DNA of 37,715 bases from Microcaldota archaeon (GTDB lineage Archaea > Micrarchaeota > Micrarchaeia > CABMEP01). The stretch is from the NCBI GenBank assembly GCA_026413625.1, contig JAOAKO010000007.1:1-37715 (forward strand), in the 5' to 3' direction. Both the position numbers and the translations under genes were made by a program. Below are positions 3,944-23,939 of the stretch, piece by piece; the first letter of the stretch is position 1; each line of letters starts with the position of its first letter. A model generated the notes under the pieces. It searched no databases. It worked only from the letters and a program-made list of their open reading frames with translations, and was not told the DNA's origin.

Positions 3944-4096
3944 CGAGCCCGAGGGGATTCGAACCCCCAACCTCTTGGTTTCCCCGAAACTTTCTTTCTA
4001 AGAAAGTTTCACCAAAGAATTTACCTTTCTGATGAAACTCTTTTCCTAAAAGAGTTTCTCCGAAGCCAAGCGCTCTATCCGTTGAGCTACGGGCCC
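3944..4096 (-). tRNA. tRNA-Arg(TCG) with 80-nt intron (about 3980..4059) at canonical position 37/38
   Basis: Acceptor GGGCCCG/CGGGCTC, D-arm GCTCAACGGATAGAGC, anticodon stem CTTGG/CCAAG with loop CTTCGG^A, T-arm GGGGG-TTCGAAT-CCCCT. BHB helix CTTC/GGGG (two G-U pairs). Confidence 0.85.
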
Positions 4097-7166: not shown

Positions 7167-7297
7167 GCCAGAGTAGCTCAGTGGTAGAGCGCCAGCGAGC
7201 CAGATTCTAATCGGTTCGGCGACACTCATAAGTCAGATTTCAACTCAAGATCTACTTGGAAATCTGGAGGTCGAGGGTTCAATCCCCTCCTCTGGCA
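7167..7297 (+). tRNA. Elongator-type tRNA-Met(CAT) with two introns: 7196..7223 (28 nt, position 30/31) and 7231..7261 (31 nt, position 37/38)
   Basis: Spliced product GCCAGAG-TA-GCTC-AGTGGTA-GAGC-G-CCAGA-CTCATAA-TCTGG-AGGTC-GAGGG-TTCAATC-CCCTC-CTCTGGC-A is a complete 72-nt cloverleaf. Intron 1 has perfect BHB helix CGCC/GGCG; intron 2 has a relaxed BHB. Confidence 0.85.
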
Positions 7298-12148: not shown

Positions 12149-12270
12149 GTGGGGATGGCAGAGCCTGGTCAAATGCGCAGGACTTAAGACCCTGGTGCAG
12201 GCTTACTTCATTTGGAAGTAGGAAATCCTGTGCCGTAGTGGCTACGTGGGTTCAAATCCCACTCCCCACA
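12149..12270 (+). tRNA. tRNA-Leu(TAA) with 36-nt intron (12189..12224) at 37/38
   Basis: GTGGGGA/TCCCCAC acceptor, CAGGA-CTTAAG^A-TCCTG anticodon arm, long variable arm CCGTAGTGGCTACG, T-arm GTGGG-TTCAAAT-CCCAC; BHB helix CTTA/TAGG. Confidence 0.88.
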
Positions 12271-16886: not shown

Positions 16887-17399
16887 TTACAACTGAGCAG
16901 AAGCAACCTTAAAATATTTTATTTTTTTATCCTCTCGCACTATCGCCAACATCAGGTTTTTTCTTGTCAGTTGCGCAGCGCGAACTAAGCGTTGAAGTTC
17001 TAGTAGGCTTATCCGCTTACCGTCTGACATAACTTCTGTGAGAATATGGCTTCTGCCTTCATTCGGCCTTATCCCTTTTTCATATACTCTTAGAGAGGTT
17101 CCAAAACCATATCCTGTCTTAACAATATAGCCTTTGCTTCTCAAATCGGAATATACTGCATATCTTATATCTATGTCTGGTTCCTTAGCAGCGAATTTTT
17201 TCATAAGTGTCGCGAAATCGACCTTTTTTCCACTTGGCGAAGAAACTTCAATTCTCTTGTTTTCTAGAAGATAAAGCGCTTCTAAAGGTGAAAGTACGAG
17301 CCTATGAGTCTTGTCTATAGTGCCGTACCCCCTGTCATAGAGCAGTTTAACCATATTTTCGTTGTCTTCGACTACAAAATTTTCTATAATGTAAGCCAT
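16887..17399 (-). CDS. endA: tRNA-splicing endonuclease, single-unit (about 170 aa)
   Basis: RYAVYSDLRSKGYIVKTGYGFGTSLRVYEKG...RSHILTEVM...LVRAAQLTRKNLMLAIV; Tyr/His/Lys catalytic residues appear present. Confidence 0.9.
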   Translation of the reverse strand: MAYIIENFVVEDNENMVKLLYDRGYGTIDKTHRLVLSPLEALYLLENKRIEVSSPSGKKVDFATLMKKFAAKEPDIDIRYAVYSDLRSKGYIVKTGYGFGTSLRVYEKGIRPNEGRSHILTEVMSDGKRISLLELQRLVRAAQLTRKNLMLAIVREDKKIKYFKVASAQL

Positions 17400-23830: not shown

Positions 23831-23939
23831 TGGGCCGGCGGAGATTTGAACTCCGGACCTACAGTTATCCTAAACCAGTTCTATATATCAGAACGTGCCA
23901 TATAAGACTGTCGCTCTGACCTGGCTGAGCTACCGGCCC
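23831..23939 (-). tRNA. tRNA-Ile(TAT) with 34-nt intron (23867..23900) at 37/38
   Basis: GGGCCGG/CCGGCCC acceptor, anticodon arm ACAGT-CTTATA^A-ACTGT, T-arm CGGAG-TTCAAAT-CTCCG; BHB helix CTTA/TAGG and inner stem GTTCT/AGAAC. Confidence 0.85.

Follow-up and report, generated by a model that had tools for sequence, protein, structure and literature searches.

We consider it likely that a dispersed palindromic repeat of DPANN archaea supplies archaeal tRNA introns, and that the intron of a tRNA-Arg(TCG) gene from a Micrarchaeota genome is one copy of it. The origin of archaeal tRNA introns is an open question, and this repeat shows how new introns can arise from a spreading repeat. The element is defined here to the base, is found both inside and outside RNA genes, is missing from orthologous sites in relatives and resides in hosts with a broad-specificity splicing endonuclease (EndA), a combination that makes intron birth testable. 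The tRNA-Arg(TCG) gene lies in the window, the whole 37,715-nt stretch of contig JAOAKO010000007.1 (assembly GCA_026413625.1) that was analysed. The genome to which the window belongs (G000; 484 kb, 54% complete) was compared with a genome of the same genus (G001; 92% complete) and with an outgroup of the same family (G002).

Removal of the single intron at position 37/38 restores a normal 73-nt tRNA-Arg(TCG), the first exon of which is almost the same as that of the G002 tRNA-Arg(TCG), which is uninterrupted at this position (Table 1). Splicing is predicted at 3980/4059, where the strand reads cttgg[CTTC]gg^a(GAAACT...AGTTTC)[GGGG]aa^a ccaag and forms a strict bulge-helix-bulge (BHB) motif with two 3-nt bulges and a 4-bp central helix, two of whose four pairs are G-U. 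An earlier note on this DNA had described two perfect 11-bp hairpins, 23 nt apart, within the 80-nt intron. Both are confirmed, and their arms do cross-pair with one mismatch each, as the note had claimed, each helix containing one C-A mismatch and one G-U pair. Apart from H1 and H2, the window contains no perfect hairpin that has a stem of 10 bp or more and a loop of 3-8 nt; a first-order Markov model predicts 0.45 such hairpins per window. No Rfam model matched inside the intron; group I and group II introns and other known RNA families were ruled out, RF00005 alone being found over the locus. A box C/D guide was also dismissed on direct reading, as the 80 nt hold neither the C box RUGAUGA nor the D box CUGA. 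Three more tRNA genes of the window (7167-7297 and 12149-12270 on the plus strand and 23831-23939 on the minus strand) have introns without the hairpin element.

Table 1. Features of the tRNA-Arg(TCG) locus and of a second EndA-family gene, in window numbering.
Feature	Position	Strand	Basis or remark
tRNA-Arg(TCG) gene, single intron at 37/38	3944..4096	-	Rfam RF00005, 53.2 bits; spliced 73-nt tRNA
5' exon, nt 1-37; central-helix strand CTTC at 4062-4065	4060..4096	-	
80-nt intron, A + palindromic element + GGGG + AA	3980..4059	-	Strict BHB
Hairpin H1, GAAACTCTTTT-AGG-AAAAGAGTTTC, then ATCAGAA	4034..4058	-	
Spacer ATCAGAAAGGTAAATTCTTTGGT, small hairpin (ATC-AGAA / TTCTTTGGT) linking the two tails	4011..4033	-	Fold and family consensus
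Hairpin H2, GAAACTTTCTT-AGA-AAGAAAGTTTC	3986..4010	-	
GGGG, intron strand of the 4-bp BHB central helix	3982..3985	-	
3' exon, nt 38-73	3944..3979	-	
170-aa EndA-family tRNA-splicing endonuclease paralogue	16887..17399	-	PF01974, 81 bits; PF02778, 54 bits; PDB matches

The repeat unit is a hairpin of the form GAAAC-(4-6 bp)-loop-(4-6 bp)-GTTTC followed by ATCA(A/G)AA, and it is often present as an inverted pair. Two facing units with a small hairpin between them make up the ~75-nt element of the tRNA-Arg(TCG) intron. In a covariation test in which only GAAAC and GTTTCATCA were held fixed, 127 of the 136 inner stem pairs were Watson-Crick, against a mean of 95.8 and a maximum of 108 in 2000 shuffles, and at several positions of the hairpin T-A is swapped for C-G on both sides of the stem. 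Complementarity of the arms so far beyond that of the shuffles argues for selection on a folded strand, either RNA or single-stranded DNA, and not for a double-stranded binding site; on this sequence evidence, the hairpin itself is under constraint.

The same unit is present in the introns of four other tRNA genes of G000, which answers the proposal in the earlier note to look for the hairpin elsewhere in the genome; in a DNA search of G000, the intron sequence recurs only in other tRNA genes. The tRNA-Ala(CGC) on contig C13 and the tRNA-Gly(CCC) on C11 contain three hairpins each, and related copies are found in tRNA-Ala(TGC) on C9 and in the T loop of a tRNA-Leu on C8. About ten tRNA genes of G001 carry the element in introns, including Ala(TGC), which sits in the 16S-23S spacer, Ala(CGC), Thr(TGT), His, Arg(TCT), Glu(TTC), Glu(CTC) and Ser(CGA), the last of which has it at two sites, the anticodon loop and the T loop. 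Introns of different tRNAs in one genome are 82-94% identical. In most double-hairpin introns of the two genomes the outer arms provide 5-8 bp of helix beside the bulges, and in tRNA-His 3 bp only. On contig C1 of G001 (locus L063), the 3' part of a tRNA-Ser and its element-bearing T-loop intron are duplicated ~1.7 kb away, as is seen for the attachment sites of integrated elements.

The locus is syntenic in G002, where tRNA-Met and tRNA-Arg(TCG) are followed by a CDC48-like ATPase gene, and the tRNA-Arg(TCG) of this outgroup has no intron at 37/38 (CCTGGCTTCGGACCAGG) and an unrelated intron in the T loop. A split tRNA-Arg in G002, considered in view of two half matches, was rejected; the gene is whole with its T-loop intron, and the second match is another tRNA gene. 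The empty syntenic site and the occurrence of the unit at many unrelated sites bear out the suggestion in the earlier note of a duplicated or inserted inverted repeat. The note had also counted relatives with unrelated intron sequence as evidence against its reading, and G002 is such a relative; its unrelated intron refutes a conserved function specific to tRNA-Arg, yet it fits insertion. The intron in the window is likely to be a gain, the comparison being with G002, as contig C7 of G001 stops at the 3' end of the tRNA. Glu(TTC) and His carry the element in G001 and have no intron in G000 or G002, and the 37/38 site of Thr(TGT), occupied by the element in G001, is empty in both other genomes; by parsimony, these three introns would be gains in G001. 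Very similar introns in different tRNA genes within a genome, together with relatives that have empty sites, are the combination that marks intron transposition of the Thermoproteales type, and both are seen here.

Among contigs of one genome per species, the pattern GAAACTYTTTN{1,8}AAARAGTTTCATCA matched 88 stretches. Among the 80 of these matches listed, 69 are archaeal, nearly all from DPANN lineages (Micrarchaeota, Woesearchaeota, Pacearchaeota, Diapherotrites, Aenigmatarchaeota, Nanohaloarchaeota and others), and 11 are from Oscillospiraceae or other Firmicutes. In the Oscillospiraceae and other Firmicutes, GAAACTTTTT..AAAAAGTTTCATCAAAAACTT lies between genes (L082, L102, L103, L108, L121, L132, L142, L144, L153, L154 and L158), and the Oscillospiraceae matches may be convergent or may stem from transfer. 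The hairpin comes after stop codons at L083, L089, L118, L159 and further loci of Woesearchaeota, where it is part of a larger conserved composite, AAC-NN-TTCCG-NN-GTTGACGGCGG, possibly a separate RNA element. A related 40-nt version with a variable interior, GAAACTTT(CCTCC...CTCCGGTT)AAAGTTTCATCA, was observed at L310-L315 (G069, G122, G124, G140 and G209); it reaches up to ~20 copies per genome and also occurs within an intron of tRNA-Gly and at duplicated 3' ends of tRNAs. The hairpin pattern had no match in IMG/VR, and a viral origin of the repeat was rejected on this ground. No description of the hairpin repeat was found in a literature search that covered few subscription journals.

Of 295 Micrarchaeia genomes, 44 contain exact matches to a slightly looser pattern, 78 in all, and the reversed-pattern control gave 0. 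On reading the flanks of these 78 matches by eye, ~38 were assigned to tRNA genes or tRNA fragments, in which the element occupies the anticodon loop at 37/38, the D loop (L215, L219-L221 and L233) or the T loop (L063, L237 and L246). Three are in rRNA (two in 23S and one at the 3' end of 16S), five lie between boxes D' and C' of C/D guide RNAs, where four seem to represent one guide (L205, L208, L226, L213 and L227 being double-hairpin guides), two fall in frame within a pilin gene's leader and the remainder are mostly intergenic. As tRNA genes account for well under 1% of such genomes, the bias towards tRNA is strong; alone, it cannot separate targeting from survival. Hairpins in frame in pilin-like leaders were noted at L248 (400-460), L240 (400-440) and near the end of L167, and the processing-site segment is repeated along with the hairpin (QSAMEH/QSAMEY/QSAMEY in L248 and AQGTIG/AQGTIEY in L167). 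Strict BHB motifs are formed at tRNA copies (the window, the Ser T loop, Arg-TCT, Val and Glu) but at 0 of 26 copies outside RNA genes. Under a relaxed rule (central helix, 3' bulge and 5-bp exon stem), the motif is found at 13 of 29 tRNA-locus copies versus 1 of 26 outside RNA genes. Each tRNA copy has a 4-nt complement to the exon that is specific to its site and absent from the repeat itself; either rare fitting insertions were retained by selection or the copies were tuned later.

We infer splicing, with insertion preceding it, as follows. The element would insert into an RNA loop, a copy with complementary outer arms would present a BHB, and the host EndA, which is of the epsilon type with broad specificity, would excise the element, allowing the tRNA to survive. 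Where a copy lacks a full BHB, EndA would recognise and remove it as a relaxed motif. G000 encodes, on another contig, an epsilon-type EndA of 381 aa (414.8 bits to ARMAN-2 EndA; PDB 4fz2/9w2k), and enzymes of this type accept relaxed motifs (PMC12397907). In the 170-aa EndA paralogue encoded in the window, the position aligned with the catalytic His holds Arg in G000 and in G001, and His in G002; in this genus the paralogue may be a structural or altered subunit.

The folding of the intron was evaluated with ViennaRNA. The isolated 73-nt core gives -22.7 kcal/mol as tandem hairpins versus -21.4 kcal/mol as one long stem; the optimum of the whole pre-tRNA (-60.1 kcal/mol) contains the long stem, and that of the excised intron (-24.2 kcal/mol) contains the two hairpins. 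In the global minimum of the pre-tRNA, TTC/GAA is paired beside the splice sites, which is not the exact BHB register. The earlier note had held that the long stem, and only the long stem, directly supports the BHB. This exclusivity is too strong, as the exact register CTTC/GGGG gives -57.0 kcal/mol with the tandem hairpins and -55.4 kcal/mol with the long stem; according to these models, folding as tandem hairpins does not prevent the central helix from forming as a relaxed splice motif. The switchable pairing proposed in the note is physically possible in this intron, but it is not conserved, as sister introns of the element family often favour the long stem when free (Arg-TCT, Ser T loop, Thr-TGT and Ala-TGC of G001). 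It is probably an incidental by-product of the presence of two copies of one palindrome. The isolated core folds lie just 1.3 kcal/mol apart, and the opposite preferences of the pre-tRNA and the free intron would suit a bistable fold selected as a switch controlling splicing; such a switch is nevertheless highly improbable, since the sister introns do not keep the balance and bistability is automatic when one palindrome occurs in two tandem copies. A conserved bistability of the riboswitch kind was rejected because the sister introns do not keep this balance.

Several other explanations of the repeat were weighed. The inverted hairpin pairs and the many dispersed copies correspond to the terminal inverted repeats and multiple copies by which a MITE is recognised. 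Were the repeat a MITE- or REP-like DNA element mobilised by a hairpin-acting transposase of the IS200/IS605 or RAYT type, it would have a hairpin with a conserved single-stranded tail, dispersed copies and inverted pairs, as are seen here, with both orientations outside RNA genes, and hairpin-recognising HUH enzymes act on such DNA. We regard this explanation as rather unlikely, however, because no Y1 (IS200/IS605) transposase is present in G000, G001 or G002, even though G001 is 92% complete, no such hairpin pair surrounds the gene at the eight Y1 loci examined and a fixed target tetranucleotide was not seen. Y1 transposase is present in 45 of 147 class members; as a mobiliser acting in the same genome it was rejected owing to its absence from the three genomes and to the Y1 loci without the hairpin pair. 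An autonomous relative with a transposase and the same ends was not seen in the 8-kb neighbourhoods scanned, nor was a transposase or other mobilising enzyme identified for the repeat. Flanking direct repeats match the shuffled control except at a few loci, and a general target-site duplication of constant length was rejected as not above this control. The long direct repeats around the hairpin comprise 18 nt of the tRNA-Gly 5' end (L081) and ~20 nt of the pilin cleavage-site region (L248 and L167); at L246 the hairpin is surrounded by the direct repeat GGGTTCGAA. Long direct repeats at these few loci may be a clue to movement or may reflect later tandem duplication. At L081 (4740-4860, minus strand), three tandem copies of the first 15-18 nt of a tRNA-Gly, separated by two different hairpins, lie just ahead of the complete gene.

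The hairpin could instead be a functional RNA module kept by selection at many RNA loci (a protein-binding or guide scaffold, or an intron RNA that is circular and has a role of its own), and not a selfish or mobile repeat. Covariation of the arms, conservation of GAAAC/GTTTC and of the ATCA tail, and residence in tRNA loops, D'-C' spacers of guide RNAs and 23S rRNA are consistent with such a module; on the other hand, single tRNAs differ in its presence or absence between species of the same genus, copies are also intergenic and inside a pilin reading frame and no shared partner feature is known, which makes this reading unlikely. Spread at the RNA level, in which the excised and perhaps circular intron re-enters RNAs by reverse action of EndA and ligase and is then copied to DNA, would explain the strong bias to tRNA, rRNA and guide-RNA genes and the copies placed exactly in BHB position with an exon-complementary 4 nt. 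It is quite improbable given the intergenic and protein-coding copies and the 4 nt, which differ at each site and would need to evolve afterwards. An ordinary inherited tRNA intron whose A+T-rich hairpins are alike by chance or structural convergence is very improbable: an internal stem is common in archaeal tRNA introns and A/T-rich perfect hairpins are also found in Oscillospiraceae, but the matches between unrelated loci contradict this reading, and the conserved GAAAC...GTTTCATCA with its reversed-pattern control of 0, the 82-94% identity that introns of different tRNAs share within a genome and the empty orthologous site in G002 speak against it.

A dispersed repeat as the source of the introns is the reading that we prefer. 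We further propose, tentatively and at somewhat less than even confidence, that this mobile palindromic element of DPANN is a portable intron, its inverted ends building the EndA helix and each insertion into an RNA loop being nearly spliceable at birth. It would be the archaeal counterpart of introners, active across phyla and also entering rRNA, C/D guide RNAs and pilin leaders.

The intron of tRNA-Arg(TCG) resembles the archaeal BHB tRNA introns cut by EndA in its 37/38 position, two 3-nt bulges, 4-bp central helix and normal tRNA product, and positions in the D loop and T loop are also known in archaea (PMC4090602). It differs in that its body is a copy of a dispersed repeat and is palindromic and 80 nt long, compared with median lengths of 12-25 nt (PMC4090602). 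Eukaryotic introners likewise make spliceable introns at many sites from dispersed copies of an element (PMC9860276); they are spliceosomal, in contrast to the EndA/BHB system here, in which no transposase has been shown. The bacterial REP/BIME and MITE repeats are also short dispersed palindromes, single or in inverted pairs, whereas the DPANN family is enriched in RNA genes as introns and is without an associated Y1 (RAYT) gene. In Thermoproteales, transposition by an unknown mechanism was inferred from repeated introns in different tRNAs, with no element identified (PMC4090602). In Caldiarchaeum, one tRNA intron gain is linked to an integrative element (PMC3293823); the present case similarly has presence and absence at one tRNA locus tied to mobile DNA, with duplicated tRNA pieces at L081, L246 and L311, but no integrase is linked to the copies and the repeat is just 25-80 nt. 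Unlike the Thermoproteales introns, the repeat belongs to DPANN, what the copies have in common is a defined hairpin with covarying arms and a conserved tail, and some of them lie in genes for rRNA, guide RNA or protein or in the intervals between genes. Compared with both Thermoproteales and Caldiarchaeum, the present case differs in that the palindromic repeat is defined, is spread DPANN-wide and is also present in genes other than those for tRNA.
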